From a virus, in the IMG/VR virus record IMGVR_UViG_3300025168_000919, positions 1 through 20,031 of that record: a DNA stretch of 20,031 nucleotides. The stretch is one strand, 5' to 3'. A program made the position numbers and the translations under genes. The first letter of the stretch is position 1, and each line of letters opens with the position of its first letter. Positions 6,335-18,702 of this stretch are shown piece by piece. The notes under the pieces were generated by a model. That model was not told the DNA's origin and ran no database searches. It saw only the letters and a list, made by a program, of their open reading frames with translations.

Positions 6335-6359
6335 TTTAGCTTTTTACCGTGTAGCTAAA
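6335..6359 (-). repeat. Inverted repeat at the end of the 534-aa gene
   Basis: TTTAGCT (6335-6341) pairs with AGCTAAA (6353-6359) around an 11-base loop that contains the stop codon of the 534-aa gene. With only 7 weak base pairs and no clear U-tract, it is a poor terminator. It may stabilise the mRNA end or be incidental. Confidence 0.35.
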
Positions 6360-7948
6360 CCACCTTTCTTATACGTCTTCATTTTTTTCTTAGGTTTTTT
6401 TCCTGCTAGGCCACCTTGATTAAAGTAACCAAAAGAACCACCAAAGTCTGCTCCACTAAAGTCTCCACCTGAGTTGGCATCTCCACCACTGTAACCATCT
6501 GGGCCACTACCTGAATAACCATCAGGGCCACCTGTGTAATCACCATCAATCCCTTTAGCAGATTTTCCTTCAGCAGCTACTGCTTCAGCAATATCAACAT
6601 CTTTTTTAGTGACACCTTTTACGGTAGGATCAGAAACATTATAAATATCTTTATTTAAATTAGCTGCTTCTAATTCCTTTGTTAATTGTTCATTTCTTTT
6701 ATCAGCAGCAGCTTTGTCTGCAGCTAATTTATCAAATAATTCTTGTTGACTTTTTATTTCAGCATCTCGTTTATTTTTTTCTGCAATAGCTGCTTGTGCT
6801 TCAGTAGTACTTTTTAATTTATATTGTTCCTTAAGATTAGCTATTTGTTCTGCAGCTTTTTTCTCAGCAAGAGCAACTGCTGATTGTGCTTCAGTAGTAC
6901 CCTTTAATTTATATTGTTCCTTAAGGTTAGCTATTTCTATTTCTTTTTCTTTTGCTGTTTTTTCTTCTGCAGCTTTTTTCTCAGCAAGAGCAATAGCTGC
7001 TTTTGCATCTCGTTTTTTATTTTCGTTTTGTATATCAAAGTCTAACGTCTTTTTATCATATGCTCGTAGACTTTTTTCTCCTTGATTTACTAAAAACTTA
7101 GTAAAAGGAATAGCTTGTAGTACAGATTTAAGTTTGCTATCTTTATTGTAAAAATCTCTAGCCTTTTGTCTATCTTCTGGGGTCATGTCTTCAAAACTTT
7201 TTACTTGACCTGATTCAGGATCATCTGGGCCACCTCCAAACTCAACAGGTTTAACTACTTCTGCAGGAGGAAGTACAGGTGAAGTTGGGGGTGCTGGTGG
7301 TAAAGGATTATTAAGATCAACTTCTACAAAACCTTCAGGTATACTAAACATAGGTACACCATTCATAAATGGAACCATCATGTTTCTACCATCTGGATGT
7401 TGATAGTTTTTAAATGTAAATCCACCAAAGCCGCCCATTGAATCTCCAAAAGAAGGTTGTGGTCTGTTTGGTTGATTTTGAGTATTTAATGTTCTCATTC
7501 CACTAGTAGCTTGAATAGGTCTTCCTCTTTCATCGTGCATTCCACCATGATAAAATCCTTTGGGAACTAACCCACCGTCAGCCATCATTAATTCTTGACC
7601 CTGATCATCTTCAACATTTATATCGCCCATACCAAAAGGAATAGAATCGTCTAACATTTCTCCTTGAGTAGGCTGACCCATTAGGCCATCTTTTTCCATT
7701 TGATTATATCCTTGCTTTGCTTCTTCTTGCATTGCATTAAGTTTATCTACACCATGATAACGAGTACTAGCTTCGTTCATTACGTACTCACCCTCACTTA
7801 ACATAGCAGGCACATCATCTCTTACGCCTTCTTGCGTTGCACCATCAGGTACTTCATTACCAGATACAGGATCTACTGTGCCACCTTGATCTTTAAGACC
7901 ACCGCCTTCAAGCATCATGCTCATTTGTTTTTCTGCTGGGGCTGCCAT
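6344..7948 (-). CDS. 534-aa coiled-coil internal/structural protein with GGL motifs
   Basis: I do not recognise a named family. Residues 44-56 (DDVPAMLSEGEYV) followed by RYHGVDKLNAMQEEA match a motif I know from many phage virion and tape-measure proteins (roughly D-x-VPAML-x-x-GE-x-V). Residues near 300-430 form a long Ala/Lys/Glu coiled coil with repeated units (ALAEKKAAE, ANLKEQYKLK, TTEAQ). The C-terminus is a Gly/Asp/Ser linker (GGPDGYSGSGPDGYSGG) ending in two GGLA boxes within Lys-rich sequence. GGL also occurs at residues 16-18 and 125-127. It sits between portal and scaffold, where ejection or internal head proteins often lie, so a virion-internal role is plausible. AAAGG lies about 9 bases before the ATG. 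Confidence 0.7.
   Translation of the reverse strand: MAAPAEKQMSMMLEGGGLKDQGGTVDPVSGNEVPDGATQEGVRDDVPAMLSEGEYVMNEASTRYHGVDKLNAMQEEAKQGYNQMEKDGLMGQPTQGEMLDDSIPFGMGDINVEDDQGQELMMADGGLVPKGFYHGGMHDERGRPIQATSGMRTLNTQNQPNRPQPSFGDSMGGFGGFTFKNYQHPDGRNMMVPFMNGVPMFSIPEGFVEVDLNNPLPPAPPTSPVLPPAEVVKPVEFGGGPDDPESGQVKSFEDMTPEDRQKARDFYNKDSKLKSVLQAIPFTKFLVNQGEKSLRAYDKKTLDFDIQNENKKRDAKAAIALAEKKAAEEKTAKEKEIEIANLKEQYKLKGTTEAQSAVALAEKKAAEQIANLKEQYKLKSTTEAQAAIAEKNKRDAEIKSQQELFDKLAADKAAADKRNEQLTKELEAANLNKDIYNVSDPTVKGVTKKDVDIAEAVAAEGKSAKGIDGDYTGGPDGYSGSGPDGYSGGDANSGGDFSGADFGGSFGYFNQGGLAGKKPKKKMKTYKKGGLATR
6798..6936 (-). repeat. In-frame tandem repeat within the coiled coil
   Basis: A roughly 49-base unit starting GCTTCAGTAGTAC at 6798 recurs at 6888, 90 bases on, with few changes. 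A second unit with GCAGCTTTTTTCTCAGC occurs near 6849 and 6966, 117 bases apart. Both offsets are multiples of three, so the repeats lengthen the coiled coil without breaking the frame. Confidence 0.8.
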
Positions 7949-12143: not shown

Positions 12144-12507
12144 TATCTTCCGTGTTTTTTGGTGGCATTAACATTACTCCACCCTTAGCTTCTACTTGTA
12201 CTTTCTCAGTTTTAACAAGTCCAGTACGATCAAGCAACTCTTTAGCTGCTGCCATTTTGTCTCTTATGCCTAGCTCAGTAGGATCAAACAAACCACTGAC
12301 CATAGCCATTGCAGCTTTAGGAGCATTACGTGCCATAAAACTTTGTGTGCTTTCTAATATTTCTTCTTTCATAGAATTAACAACTTCAGTAGTACTGGTA
12401 GCATCAGAGTAACCTGCAAGTTTTTTAGCTGTTGCTACATCTCCACCAGCCTGATCAAACAATACAGATAAAAACTGTTGTTGTCTTTCTGTTAGTTGTC
12501 TAGCCAT
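12136..12507 (-). CDS. Putative terminase small subunit
   Basis: The start chosen is the ATG at 12507 (123 residues, MARQLTERQQQFLSVLFD), with CTGGAG 8 bases upstream inside the lysozyme 3' end. The longer frame to 12594 would run far into lysozyme without support. The opening L-T-x-x-Q-x-x-FL, then AKKLAGYSDATS and later GIRDKMAAAKELLDRTGL, resembles the helical DNA-binding and oligomerisation layout of small terminases that recognise the packaging site. It ends with a flexible acidic tail. Its position two genes before terL supports the call, but the next gene competes for the role. Confidence 0.65.
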   Translation of the reverse strand: MARQLTERQQQFLSVLFDQAGGDVATAKKLAGYSDATSTTEVVNSMKEEILESTQSFMARNAPKAAMAMVSGLFDPTELGIRDKMAAAKELLDRTGLVKTEKVQVEAKGGVMLMPPKNTEDND

Positions 12508-13015
12508 GAGCCATCTCCAGTGCTTTTTCTTTTGTCTCATCATTACGTCTAGTCCAGCCTTTACCGAAAGTGTCAAACGTAGACAACTTCTCATAAAAAC
12601 TTTGACGTGTGTAATGCATTTGTTCTATTATTTCTACAGCTTCCATATCACCTACTGCAGCTATTGTCATCGGGCCTATGCCACCATCCTGCTCTACACC
12701 GACTATACGTTGTAAAGCTTTAGCAGATCGTGATACGCCTGAATTAACAGCCCAGTCAAATACACAAAGATCAACCCCACTAGGAAGTTGATCACATTTA
12801 GCTCTATTCCAATAATTCTTTTTATAGATAGGTGCTACATCTTCGTGCGTCAAGTCACGCATTTCTTTAGGCGTAGTTTCTCTGCCTACCCACTTATCGT
12901 AGACTTTTTTAGTGACACCGTAGTTCGTTATTCCACCCGGATCTTTAGGATGATTTACAAAACCGCCTTCGTGTTCTAATATTATTTCTAAACACGTATT
13001 GTAGTTAGTTATCAT
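12500..13015 (-). CDS. Endolysin, GH108-type lysozyme
   Basis: The 171-residue enzyme shows the glycoside hydrolase family 108 signature: LEHEGGFVNHPKDPGG followed by TNYGVT, with the catalytic Glu expected in the HEGG motif (Glu16). The middle, KNYWNRAKCDQLPSGVD and FDWAVNSGVSRSAKALQ, and the C-terminal QDGGIGPMT segment match the family's fold and its predicted peptidoglycan-binding part. The length is typical. There is no signal peptide, so it should stay in the cytoplasm until a holin opens the membrane, and the gene just upstream is a holin-like protein joined by an ATGA overlap. It cleaves peptidoglycan glycan strands for host lysis. Confidence 0.9.
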   Translation of the reverse strand: MITNYNTCLEIILEHEGGFVNHPKDPGGITNYGVTKKVYDKWVGRETTPKEMRDLTHEDVAPIYKKNYWNRAKCDQLPSGVDLCVFDWAVNSGVSRSAKALQRIVGVEQDGGIGPMTIAAVGDMEAVEIIEQMHYTRQSFYEKLSTFDTFGKGWTRRNDETKEKALEMAHG

Positions 13016-13374
13016 TTCTTGCCGCCAAAGAACTTAGTTGCAGATCGTATACCAAAGGATGCAGCAATAACTACTCCAAGAGAATAGCTATACCATTGTG
13101 GTGCTTCTCCTAGTGCAGTAAACCCTGCTGCTGCAATCTCTCTACCCCAATCCCCACAGAAGGATAAAATAAATGGGCCACTTAAAAGCAGTGTCAACCA
13201 TTCGTCTTTCCATGAGTTCTGTGTAGCTTTCATAGCTTCCAGATCCCAGTCTATTTCACCTGTAGCAATCTTTAAGTCTTTGGTAGCTTTAGCTTTTTGT
13301 ACAGCAGTCTTGCCTTCAATCCATGATCCAGCAAGACCAGCTATAGGCCCAAGTATATTACCTAAACCAAGCAT
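13012..13374 (-). CDS. Holin, 3TM / gene-transfer-agent type
   Basis: The 120-residue protein has a hydrophobic Gly-rich start (GLGNILGPIAGLAGSWIEG), a charged linker (KAKATKDLKIATGEIDWD), then NSWKDEWLTLLLSGPFILSF with CGDWGREI, and a last hydrophobic segment (YSYSLGVVIAASFGI) before a basic tail (KFFGGKK). The WKDEW and GDWGRE elements match holins of the three-transmembrane family first described in gene-transfer agents. It would form membrane lesions that release the lysozyme encoded next, with which it shares an ATGA junction. Its own start overlaps the stop of the Cys-rich mini-gene by one base (TGATG). Confidence 0.82.
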   Translation of the reverse strand: MLGLGNILGPIAGLAGSWIEGKTAVQKAKATKDLKIATGEIDWDLEAMKATQNSWKDEWLTLLLSGPFILSFCGDWGREIAAAGFTALGEAPQWYSYSLGVVIAASFGIRSATKFFGGKK

Positions 13375-13486: not shown

Positions 13487-13846
13487 TTATTTAAAGGCGA
13501 TAGCTACGCCTATTGACAGATCACTATATTTAAAGTCTTTATCTAAAGATAATTTAGAATAAGCAGACAGGCTTTTGCTTATACCTAATGTGCTTTTTAC
13601 TGATGCACCAGCAATAGCAAATGAACCTCCACTTGCATATCCCCAGTCTAGTGCTGGTCTAATAGATAGTCTTGAAACGTTTGCAGTTACGCCAAAGTCT
13701 CCCGACCATTTCTTAGATTTAATTCCATACTCAACAGATGCATCTGGCTTTATCATAGATAAAAGACCACCTCTTACAACTCCTTCAGCCTGTGCTGACA
13801 TTGCCGTTAGTGTAACAATAACACCTGCAATAAATAAATTTCTCAT
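13487..13846 (-). CDS. Secreted beta-rich, outer-membrane-protein-like
   Basis: The 119-residue product has a clear signal peptide (MRNLFIAGVIVTLTAMSAQA, cleavage likely after AQA). The mature part alternates polar and hydrophobic residues with short turns (SVEYGIKSKKWSGDFGV, then SRLSIRPALDWGYASG), as in small beta-barrels, and it ends SIGVAIAFK with a penultimate Phe. Outer-membrane proteins usually end in Phe or Trp, so the last Lys is atypical. The mature size allows perhaps six to eight strands. The start overlaps the DUF1127 stop by one base (TAATG), and the Cys-rich gene and holin follow. Roles could be superinfection exclusion or assistance in disrupting the outer membrane; both are guesses. 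Confidence 0.7.
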   Translation of the reverse strand: MRNLFIAGVIVTLTAMSAQAEGVVRGGLLSMIKPDASVEYGIKSKKWSGDFGVTANVSRLSIRPALDWGYASGGSFAIAGASVKSTLGISKSLSAYSKLSLDKDFKYSDLSIGVAIAFK

Positions 13847-14102: not shown

Positions 14103-14291
14103 TTATTTACGTTTACTGTACGATCCCGGTTTAGCAAAATTTTTCTTAGGCAAACCACCTTTATTCATTCCCTTTGCTATTCTAGGGTTTGTTTTTACTG
14201 CTTTTGATTTTGGTATGCCATACTCTTTAAGAAATTGTTTTGCTGGCAAACCTCCCTCTTTAGGATTTTTTAAGTCTTGTTTCATTCCCAT
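14103..14291 (-). CDS. 62-aa basic GGLP-repeat protein
   Basis: The protein has two related halves: EGGLPAKQFLKEYGIPKSK and NKGGLPKKNFAKPGSYSKRK, each GGLP-x-K-x-F-x-K followed by a Tyr/Ser/Lys segment. It is very basic, lacks Cys and has no membrane span. The GGL-plus-lysine style links it to the 534-aa structural protein and the KKKGYAKGG protein. AAAGGAA lies about 11 bases before the ATG at 14291, with a second ATG two codons later. It is the last gene before the 14.0-14.1 kb promoter gap. The function is unknown; virion or nucleic-acid association is a guess. Confidence 0.65.
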   Translation of the reverse strand: MGMKQDLKNPKEGGLPAKQFLKEYGIPKSKAVKTNPRIAKGMNKGGLPKKNFAKPGSYSKRK

Positions 14292-14299
14292 AGTATATT

Positions 14300-14626
14300 T
14301 TATTCCTTTGACTTTGTTTTAGTTAAAGCTGTAGCACCCATAAAACCTAGTACGACACCCATCTGTGCTACAAGAAAAGTGTTAAGAAACCCTGATGCAG
14401 ACTCCATACGAGCTACATTAATAATAGGCGTAAGTAATACTATAACAGTTACGATTGTTGTACCCATAGCTAACCAAGCCATAGTACGTTGCGTGTCCAT
14501 CATCTTGTCTTCGTTCTCTAAACGTATCCATCGTTCATGGCGATCTAGCTCTTCGTCAGTAATAATGCCATCACCATCCGTGTCAGCTACTGCATACTTG
14601 CTATCTGCCTGTAGTTTCTTTGACAT
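14300..14626 (-). CDS. Membrane protein with an EF-hand calcium loop
   Basis: Residues 15-26 (DTDGDGIITDEE) are a canonical EF-hand loop, with Asp at positions 1, 3 and 5, Gly at 6, Ile at 8 and Glu at 12. A charged helix follows, then two hydrophobic spans (about residues 50-69 and 82-101) and a Lys-rich tail. Only one loop is present, although EF-hands usually pair, so dimerisation may be needed. GAGGAA lies 5 bases before the ATG. It follows another two-span protein in a run of small membrane genes just ahead of the lysis genes. A calcium-sensitive holin or antiholin-like role is conceivable but unproven. Confidence 0.75.
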   Translation of the reverse strand: MSKKLQADSKYAVADTDGDGIITDEELDRHERWIRLENEDKMMDTQRTMAWLAMGTTIVTVIVLLTPIINVARMESASGFLNTFLVAQMGVVLGFMGATALTKTKSKE

Positions 14627-14628
14627 TA

Positions 14629-14934
14629 CTATTCCTCATGTTTAGCAAAGGCTGATCCAGTAAGTATAGCCCCAAATGCTAGATGAAACAATCCACCACC
14701 CATAAGAGTAAAAGGATTATGTTGCCCTGTTAACTTTTTCATCAGTTCCATTTGAACCATTGGCTCAGTAGTAGAATTTATAATATCCATAAACTGAGAT
14801 ATATCTGGTCTATTAATTCCGTACCATATAGGTACAAACATAAAGTCATAAAAACATATTAATAAATATATTATTAATGCAGTCCACCGCCAAGTCATAG
14901 TAGACTTCTGTTGTGCGGTAAGTTGTTTACTCAT
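14629..14934 (-). CDS. Two-span membrane protein, possible holin
   Basis: This 101-residue protein has a short basic start with STMTWRWTAL, one span at about residues 17-37 (LIIYLLICFYDFMFVPIWY), a polar loop with MVQMELMKKLTG, and a Gly-rich second span (TLMGGGLFHLAFGAILTGSA). Length and layout are holin-like, and I recall similar proteins in marine phages without a proven role. The start abuts the stop of the 34-aa gene (TAAATG) with no clear ribosome site, so translation is probably coupled. Together with the better holin candidate at 13012-13374 it could form a holin/antiholin pair. Confidence 0.7.
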   Translation of the reverse strand: MSKQLTAQQKSTMTWRWTALIIYLLICFYDFMFVPIWYGINRPDISQFMDIINSTTEPMVQMELMKKLTGQHNPFTLMGGGLFHLAFGAILTGSAFAKHEE

Positions 14935-15039
14935 TTAGATACAGGGAGGTGTACACATTTGTACTTTAGCCCCATATACCATTATACCTACTAGTATTGA
15001 AATTATTAAACCTATCCAAATCCATTTATATTTAATCAT
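14935..15039 (-). CDS. 34-aa single-span membrane peptide
   Basis: The frame starts with ATG at 15039, overlapping the upstream stop by four bases (ATGA), and ends directly before the next ATG. It reads MIKYKWIWIGLIISILVG, a single hydrophobic span, followed by KVQMCTPPCI with two Cys. Exact fit between two genes with overlap at both ends supports expression. Small single-span peptides of this kind occur among pinholins, spanin parts and membrane-targeting toxins. The function is unknown. Confidence 0.65.
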   Translation of the reverse strand: MIKYKWIWIGLIISILVGIMVYGAKVQMCTPPCI

Positions 15040-15236
15040 GCTTCTTCTCCATAAGGATTAAATGCAAAACATTTAGCTTTTACATAGTGGCCTGTAGTCA
15101 ATAGACCTCTTGCTACAGTTTTTATTTGTTCTTGACACTCTACTTCTGTTTTAAACAAATGATTTTTACGTATCATAACATCGCAAGATGTAGGATCAGT
15201 AATAACTGAACAGTATAGTATTACTGCAAGAAACAT
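15036..15236 (-). CDS. 66-aa secreted/anchored Cys protein
   Basis: The product begins with a hydrophobic stretch (MFLAVILYCSVI) that could be a short signal or membrane anchor, followed by TDPTSCDVMIRKN and a mainly polar domain. Cys at positions 9, 18, 34 and 56 suggest a disulfide-stabilised periplasmic fold or, if Cys9 is lipidated, a lipoprotein; the context of Cys9 is not a clean lipobox. The start shares one base with the upstream stop (TAATG) and the stop overlaps the next start (ATGA). I recall similar tiny proteins in marine phages but no function. Confidence 0.7.
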   Translation of the reverse strand: MFLAVILYCSVITDPTSCDVMIRKNHLFKTEVECQEQIKTVARGLLTTGHYVKAKCFAFNPYGEEA

Positions 15237-17720: not shown

Positions 17721-18023
17721 CTATATCTTTACGAGCTTATAGCCTTTTGCTTTAGCTGCTGATCTAATTTCTGCAAGAGTCATAGGTTTTGCTTTAACCA
17801 TACCGCCCTTTTTCATATAGCCCATTTTATTTCTAACTGAGCTAGGAAGTTTACTTACGCCTTTGTTTCCTTTAGGTGCAGCTTTAAGTCCACCAGCAGC
17901 ATATCCTTTTTTCTTCATCATAGCACCGCCTTTAGCGTAGCCTTTTTTCTTCATGCCACCTTTAGCGTATCCTTTTTTCTTCATGCCACCTTTAGCATAG
18001 CCTTTTTTCTTTTTCATAACCAT
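17721..18023 (-). CDS. KKKGYAKGG repeat protein
   Basis: I place the start at ATG 18023 because AAGGAG lies 7 bases upstream; the frame extends to 18053 without such a site. The 100-residue protein has four copies of KKKGYAKGGM-like decapeptides (about residues 5-14, 15-24, 25-34 and 37-46), then LPSSVRNKMGYMKKGGMV and a small C-terminal domain (MTLAEIRSAAKAKGYKLVKI). Similar Lys-Gly-Tyr repeat proteins occur in marine phages, from memory. The repeats may bind DNA, RNA or membranes, or act as a phase-separating linker; none of this is shown. Gly-Gly plus Met or Leu also recurs in two other proteins here. Confidence 0.75.
   Translation of the reverse strand: MVMKKKKGYAKGGMKKKGYAKGGMKKKGYAKGGAMMKKKGYAAGGLKAAPKGNKGVSKLPSSVRNKMGYMKKGGMVKAKPMTLAEIRSAAKAKGYKLVKI
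17886..18011 (-). repeat. 30-bp coding tandem repeats (KKKGYAKGG units)
   Basis: The unit CCTTTTTTCTTCATGCCACC plus TTTAGCGTAT occurs at 17941-17970 and 17971-18000 with only two differing bases, flanked by a partial copy and by one with a short insertion. The near-identity suggests recent slippage or recombination, and copy number may vary between relatives. Confidence 0.85.
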
Positions 18024-18027
18024 TATA

Positions 18028-18702
18028 TTACTCCTTGTTATATAAGTTATCAAATACTCTGTGTGTATCCCACACGTAATCTAAATCTTCTTTAGAGTGA
18101 AACACTCTCTGACTAGGTTTGAAGTCTGGTGCACCTTCTCCTGTCTCAAACCAAGCAGGGTGCGTAACTCTTACTCTGTTATTGGGTAGTGCTACAATGT
18201 TTCCTGTGTACTCTGCAGCGTCTACTAGCTCTAATACGTGACTCTGTTTATGTTGAGCAGGGTCATCTGCTATCTCAGAGCCTGTGTAGTCTACTGTGAA
18301 TAGGTATTTAGCTGGATAGAACTCTCCATCCACTTTAGCTAACCACGGAGCTGGTGTAGCCCTGCTAAGTACGTAGACTGAGTGATCATGTGACATACAA
18401 TCCCAAGGCTGTGCTGCGTAGGCTGGTAGCTCTTCTGCCCACTCCTCTACAGGTGTATCACCTACGAGTGCGGTAATAGGCATTCTCGCCCACATCGCTC
18501 CACCGTGTACGTTAGGTTCGTCTGTGTCATCTGATTCACAACCAGTAAAGATAACTTGGAAGCTGAGTGATCTATTTGGCATAGTCGTTACAGCTATTAC
18601 CATGCAATGTAGGAACTCACCGTGGTATCGTTCAAAATTACATGTATATTCTCTTCTTACCCACGCTTTGAAGTAGGGTATATTACTTTGTAGATACGCC
18701 AT
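18028..18702 (-). CDS. 224-aa conserved acidic protein, unknown function
   Basis: Unlike its Lys-rich neighbours, this protein is acidic and rich in Trp, His and Asp. It holds YFKAWVRREYTCNFERYHGE, VIFTGCESDDTDEPNVHGGA, PYAAQPWDCMSHDHSVYV-like segments and VWDTHRVFDN near the end. I recall close relatives in marine phages but no function. The DNA is clearly richer in G+C: one 60-base line (18121-18180) has 30 G/C against 16 in a line of the 394-aa gene. This may reflect codon choice for strong expression or separate origin. The start at 18702 overlaps the upstream gene by 20 bases with a distant GGAGG. Several His, Cys and Asp residues could bind a metal, but no set motif is evident. Confidence 0.78.
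   Translation of the reverse strand: MAYLQSNIPYFKAWVRREYTCNFERYHGEFLHCMVIAVTTMPNRSLSFQVIFTGCESDDTDEPNVHGGAMWARMPITALVGDTPVEEWAEELPAYAAQPWDCMSHDHSVYVLSRATPAPWLAKVDGEFYPAKYLFTVDYTGSEIADDPAQHKQSHVLELVDAAEYTGNIVALPNNRVRVTHPAWFETGEGAPDFKPSQRVFHSKEDLDYVWDTHRVFDNLYNKE

Follow-up and report, generated by a model that had tools for sequence, protein, structure and literature searches.

The window analysed here is a 20,031-base virus record with genes for a portal, a terminase, a relative of the P22-type coat and a GH108 endolysin, all on the minus strand. Within it lies a small gene that raises a question: what would a phage do with an EF-hand calcium loop fused to two membrane spans? The description that best suits the product of this gene (hereafter the EF protein; see Table 1) is that of a holin-type lysis protein in a new form, one that bears an EF-hand.

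Table 1. Coordinates of the EF gene, its parts and its neighbours in the window, followed by gene orders of related cassettes in other phages and loci.
Feature	Position	Strand	Basis or remark
EF-hand/two-TM protein (the finding)	14300..14626	-	108-aa ORF
EF-hand loop DTDGDGIITDEE, residues 15-26	14549..14584	-	ligand positions invariant or near-invariant in the family
Predicted transmembrane helix 1, about residues 50-70	14417..14479	-	segment by eye; within AlphaFold2 helix 24-65; family hydropathy
Predicted transmembrane helix 2, about residues 81-101, then basic C-tail	14324..14386	-	by eye; within AlphaFold2 helix 71-107; charge bias of C-tail
101-aa protein, two apparent hydrophobic segments, immediately upstream of EF gene, tightly coupled	14629..14934	-	no family match
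62-aa basic protein directly downstream of EF gene	14103..14291	-	no convincing family match
119-aa protein between EF and 3TM genes, apparent signal sequence	13487..13846	-	no family match; fold by eye
3TM holin-like protein (phrog_2524), overlaps endolysin start	13012..13374	-	remote relative of GTA_holin_3TM PF11351
GH108 endolysin with PG_binding_3 domain	12500..13015	-	family matches
CRP-810 cassette: EF/PF11351 holin/GH108			
CRP-345 cassette: EF/spanin/M15			
CRP-9 and CRP-1 cassettes: EF/M15/spanin-like			
L160 and L162 cassettes: EF/3TM/GH24			
L168 cassette: EF/GH24			
DC31-type cassette: XhlA-like/tail-anchored/EF/Rz/M15			

Architecture of the EF protein

The loop of the window protein carries D1, D3, D5, G6, I8, T9 and E12, that is, all EF-hand ligand positions, and the protein holds only this one loop. 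It is also the sole match to an EF-loop pattern in the six frames of the window, and the same pattern was absent from 60 shuffled windows. A loop arising by chance is ruled out by its conservation and codon pattern (see below). Against the Pfam EF-hand model the window protein scores 17.0 bits, under the gathering score of 25.9; EF-hand_1 is matched by 26 out of 29 diverse family members, and the family profile retrieves solved EF-hand proteins including calmodulin (E ~1e-8). Judging from the sequence, the loop is highly likely to bind calcium.

Two hydrophobic segments are seen by hydropathy in most homologues. AlphaFold2 models the window protein as a helix at residues 24-65, a short turn and a helix at 71-107 (pLDDT 76, pTM 0.43), preceded at the N-terminus by a helix at 10-14 and the loop, a part for which the pLDDT is only 59-68. 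A Foldseek search of this model against PDB and BFVD gave no match at E <=0.001, as can be expected because the model is a simple helical hairpin. The original prediction of one loop with every canonical ligand position is hence borne out by the sequence and by homologue conservation, and its joining to a two-span hairpin is well supported by family conservation, hydropathy and AlphaFold2.

Charged residues point to the orientation of the hairpin. Among 113 distinct members the mean number of lysines and arginines is 2.7 in the C-tail, 1.0 in the loop between the spans and 7.5 in the N-domain; the C-tail exceeds the inter-span loop in 107 of the 113 and is never below it. Because of this bias an N-in/C-in topology is predicted, as for class II holins, whose pattern including a basic C-tail has been described (PMC3556154). 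The EF loop would consequently face the cytoplasm, a placement that we regard as probable.

The ATG of the EF gene lies 2 nt past the stop of the 101-aa upstream ORF, and a GAGGA located ~7 nt ahead of this ATG sits in the last codons of that ORF, which suggests that both genes are translationally coupled. Separately, three window proteins (17721-18053, 14103-14291 and 6344-7948) have in common a KGG[LM] motif near lysine-rich stretches, in the contexts of KKGYAKGG repeats, NKGGLPKK and KKGGLATR.

Spread and conservation of the family

The EF/two-TM family is widespread and occurs in many unrelated, mostly aquatic phages. Homologues retrieved with tblastn derive from phages of roseobacters (HMO-2011-type), Limnohabitans, SAR11, OM43 Methylophilales, Sinorhizobium and Stenotrophomonas. 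One scan of IMG/VR yielded 216 close relatives and a profile scan at least 510 family members, while genome bins of prokaryotes contain 18 family loci, many of them on phage-like contigs. One member (L156, 1087-1428) is found on a 4.6-kb contig of a gammaproteobacterial bin, with neighbours read by eye as pgpA-, thiE- and hemL-like; this copy may be a prophage remnant, a cellular copy or a binning error. The only PHROG that clearly covers the window protein is phrog_27150, which carries no assigned function, aligns along the full length of the Sinorhizobium phiM12 type and is matched by 24 of the 29 diverse members. Searches of Pfam, NCBIfam and PHROGs with these 29 gave no convincing named function.

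Ligand conservation in homologues had been set beforehand as the check that could overturn the calcium loop, and the ligands turned out to be conserved: a first pass, counted by ligand positions and disregarding the non-ligand position 4, found them in 148 of 149, and a second pass, using a pattern that leaves loop position 9 free, in 162 out of the 164 full-length homologues. Two outliers differ in kind: the loop of L158, DTNGDKIITDKE, lacks only the glycine at position 6, and the protein of Stenotrophomonas phage DLP_6 has lost the loop and retained the hairpin and the gene position. The loop is still conserved where overall identity to the window protein drops to 20-40%. For 74 distinct close relatives (>60% identity) dN is 0.002 at the ligand codons, with dS saturated, and 0.19 in the transmembrane region; the ligand codons vary almost only synonymously and are among the most constrained of the gene.

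Gene neighbourhood and exchange at one position

The labels of neighbouring genes come from iterative phmmer searches, and most of the seeds were verified against Pfam and PHROGs. With the seeds taken from these same loci and the counts standing without a control gene, an endolysin is found within 3 kb on the same strand in 57 out of 80 loci having at least 2.5 kb on both sides, and an endolysin, 3TM holin or spanin in 63 of these 80. The endolysins near the EF gene represent four unrelated enzyme families (GH108, M15, GH24 and GH19). At the level of sequence clusters (60% identity) an endolysin lies within 3 kb in 14 out of 20, usually together with a 3TM holin or spanin. The predicted link with lysis is well supported by such endolysin, holin and spanin neighbours in unrelated phages, and the family probably works in host lysis.

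In the window the order is 101-aa protein, EF protein, 62-aa protein, 119-aa protein, 3TM protein and GH108 endolysin. Relatives of the 101-aa protein are found in some loci of the window's clade. Alignment of the 3TM protein to PF11351 with hhalign gave a probability score of 90.6 and an E-value of 1.3e-6. The 119-aa protein shows a barrel-like alternation and is possibly a small outer-membrane barrel in the lysis region.

Several other small proteins recur around the EF gene. A tail-anchored protein of 150-235 aa with a C-terminal span often lies directly upstream and is present within 3 kb in 42 of 164 loci (e.g. L144 5516-5995, L086 2257-2718, L131 4015-4710 and L116 5513-5992). These proteins are mostly without family, apart from one match to phrog_32327, and a CRP-345 relative is located elsewhere (27176-27652); they are a possible third lysis component. 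Three roseophage proteins (L090 4287-4652, L083 2365-2739 and L086 3764-4105) combine an apparent lipobox with a C-terminal span and look like one-piece spanins, two of them matching the Rz-like spanin PHROG 1804 weakly. Finally, a protein of 60-80 aa that contains several cysteines and, near its N-terminus, a short hydrophobic segment recurs near EF cassettes (window 15036-15236; L090 2253-2441; L086 720-908; L083 3094-3279), in L169 ~300 bases downstream of the EF gene.

At one position other holin-type genes take the place of the EF gene, a form of replacement typical of holin genes. M15 endolysins that are 58-66% identical to the one of CRP-345 are preceded by other hydrophobic proteins in CRP-13 (a 3TM protein and an 81-aa protein), in CRP-823 and ctQRb9 (a 3TM protein of PF11351 type) and in CRP-831 (a different two-span protein). 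We also performed a hydropathy scan on the genes of four complete HMO-2011-type genomes, leaving out a few near the record ends. Of the CRP-1 proteins shorter than 350 aa, the EF protein alone has two predicted spans, and its gene directly precedes the endolysin gene; the adjacent spanin-like gp54 was scored with one span, a second hydrophobic segment being visible. The early regions of CRP-9 and CRP-345 each encode one further tiny two-span protein; CRP-207, besides its EF protein, has a 3TM-like protein elsewhere in the genome.

T4-like phages place the gene differently. In HTVC008M, Melnitz, phiM12, phiN3, DLP_6, L159 and L161 it is located between gp51 and the tape measure gene; the first four fall outside the lysis-cassette pattern, and the annotated lysozyme of HTVC008M is far from the EF gene. 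Given the recurrence of this slot, it might be argued that the slot reflects the true function (a membrane factor in tail or hub assembly or in DNA ejection) and that adjacency to lysis genes is incidental. On the tree at least four changes of the T4-slot label are needed on well-supported branches, and therefore the slot has been filled repeatedly. Nonetheless, the gene is present in this slot in only some T4-like phages: in S-SM2 gp51 is directly followed by the gene of a large transmembrane protein, with no EF gene between them, and YB07 apparently has no comparable small gene between the gp51-sized ORF and the next large gene. Against a tail or hub factor, other kinds of phage often have the gene close to an endolysin, with four enzyme families represented, and close relatives bridge both settings: the L137 protein, adjoining two spanin-like genes, is 65% identical to that of HTVC008M, and the proteins of L161 (T4 slot) and L162 (3TM/GH24) share 57% identity. 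Moreover, the T4 holin gene t itself lies among tail genes and not beside the endolysin gene. We consider a tail or ejection function improbable; a core role in tail assembly is disfavoured, the gene being optional in T4-like phages and moving to and from lysis cassettes.

Homologues retrieved for the tape measure protein of HTVC008M were limited to remote Gram-positive tape measures, and the T4-like regions of Vibrio K351 and Klebsiella T751 showed no annotated gp51/tape measure pair after gp26. In DLP_6 the loop-less family member is directly followed by a tape-measure-like protein of 720 aa (L092 4346-6508), which has a GH108 domain in its C-terminal part.

A proposed holin-type lysis protein and its alternatives

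Searches of Pfam, NCBIfam and PHROGs with the 29 members gave no match to named holin families above threshold; weak matches to Phage_holin_3_6 were obtained for 3 of the 29 (best E 0.0065). Because of this lack of sequence match the EF protein is not placed in any holin family, despite its class II-like architecture and gene context. There is an about even chance, in our judgement, that it is a class II-type holin or an obligate holin partner whose mechanism involves a calcium-filled loop; whether it would form the pore itself rather than regulate one is equally balanced.

The mechanism would run as follows. The EF protein would reside in the inner membrane as a two-span hairpin with its loop in the cytoplasm and, as long as the membrane is intact, this loop would be empty because free calcium in the cytoplasm is sub-micromolar. 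At the time of lysis a first small lesion, whether due to the EF protein or to its 3TM companion, would admit external calcium. Calcium would then fill the single EF loops, which might associate across subunits, as lone EF-hands usually dimerise; the paired loops could straighten or rigidify the helix that leads into span 1 and push the hairpins into large assemblies. Such cooperative assembly would produce all-or-none lesions through which the cytoplasmic endolysin escapes. Gating in this full sense, with a loop that is empty in the healthy cell and calcium from the first lesions making lysis cooperative and sudden, is a tentative and somewhat unlikely proposal, and it is doubtful that calcium acts as a trigger rather than as a purely structural ion. 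The suggestion in the original prediction that the protein could sense leakage or gate lysis would fit a loop on the cytoplasmic side. That prediction also invoked the calcium of seawater, an argument that proves too restrictive: the family has members in phages of freshwater Limnohabitans and soil Sinorhizobium as well as in further non-marine phages, and therefore only an inward calcium gradient would be required.

The companion 3TM protein offers another division of labour, in which this PF11351-like protein forms the pore and the EF protein, as an antiholin or activator, inhibits or triggers it by calcium. A 3TM holin-like gene lies close to the EF gene in 67 of 100 loci of the window's own clade as well as in CRP-810, L160, L162, L158 and L145, and the gene transfer agent of R. 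capsulatus is annotated with a holin, rcc00556, adjoining the endolysin rcc00555. The EF protein could be accessory because a 3TM protein is usually present as well in the window clade. However, no 3TM gene is in view beside the EF gene in CRP-1, CRP-9, CRP-345 and the DC31-type cassette, where the EF protein itself would therefore have to be the holin, and we rate a purely regulatory role as rather unlikely. Quite apart from lysis, a host-takeover or superinfection-exclusion membrane protein might travel as a passenger near lysis genes; its presence is optional, it is mobile between phage types and one copy (L156) lies on a short bacterial contig beside cell genes. In many clusters endolysin, 3TM holin and spanin genes recur next to it to a degree not expected for a passenger, which makes this reading very improbable.

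A further alternative concerns the loop only: it might be a static calcium or magnesium site, for instance one that holds the N-domain folded, and sense nothing. Single DxDxDG loops are often structural, as in dockerin repeats, and DLP_6 does without the loop while keeping hairpin and gene position. On the other hand, few codons of the gene are as constrained as those of the ligands and, if the N-domain is cytoplasmic, a loop of micromolar affinity would be empty before lysis, so that a constitutive role for calcium is less natural. A static site thus appears unlikely, if still worth weighing.

Known systems and significance

Holins time phage lysis, and there is continuing debate about what makes them trigger so suddenly. 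On a protein of holin type, a calcium loop that is conserved would be a concrete candidate trigger that can be mutated (D15, D17, D19 and E26) and, if the proposal is true, a calcium-gated holin would constitute a widespread family, shared by phages that are unrelated and whose endolysins are unrelated too. Relatives are frequent enough in aquatic viromes for the family to improve the annotation of lysis modules, and it would supply a lysis gene for marine phages without a recognised one such as Melnitz, which encodes a family member. The consulted passages of the Melnitz paper name no holin gene and propose a curli pore as pinholin analogue (PMC9004378), and lysis genes are mentioned in general terms only in the genomic report on CRP-207 (PMC9038755). 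In the open-access literature (PMC) we found no report of an EF-hand holin and nothing relevant that links an EF-hand with a marine phage or with calcium-triggered lysis; papers on EF-hand and holin were endolysin and general phage papers only. This agrees with the original statement that no phage protein of the EF-hand/two-span kind has been characterised.

Compared with T4, where genes 27 and 28 occupy the comparable slot, the EF gene of some T4-like phages resembles that of gp28 (a membrane-associated hub assembly factor of the inner membrane) in its place upstream of the tape measure gene. It differs in being optional in T4-like phages and in occurring outside the T4 group as well, and family searches gave no similarity between both proteins.

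GTA_holin_3TM (PF11351) is found in the same cassettes as the EF gene, often adjacent; gp32 of CRP-810 matches it with an E-value of 2.5e-20. It is a separate protein which, unlike the EF protein, has three spans and no EF loop: PF11351 gave no match to the window EF protein at E-values up to 1 and is absent from the 25 families most frequently matched by the 29 members. The RcGTA genes rcc00555 and rcc00556, the latter of which we take to be of PF11351 type, are the nearest described endolysin/3TM-holin pair. A holin-free lysis route has been described in a GTA paper (PMC13236601).

Class II holins of the phage 21 S21 type come closest in layout. The EF protein likewise has two spans, a predicted N-in/C-in topology, a basic C-tail and no signal peptide, and its gene likewise lies beside endolysin and spanin genes. 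It differs by its N-terminal EF-hand loop and long helix and by its length (~108 aa against ~70), without detectable similarity to named holin families; its soluble N-domain, 45 aa including the conserved loop, is bigger than would be usual in this class, and we know of no member of that class with an N-terminal EF-hand loop and long helix. With the EF-hand superfamily (calmodulin etc.) the EF protein has all loop ligand positions in common. It has a single loop instead of a pair and a very short predicted entering helix (residues 10-14), whereas its exiting helix is predicted to continue into a transmembrane span.
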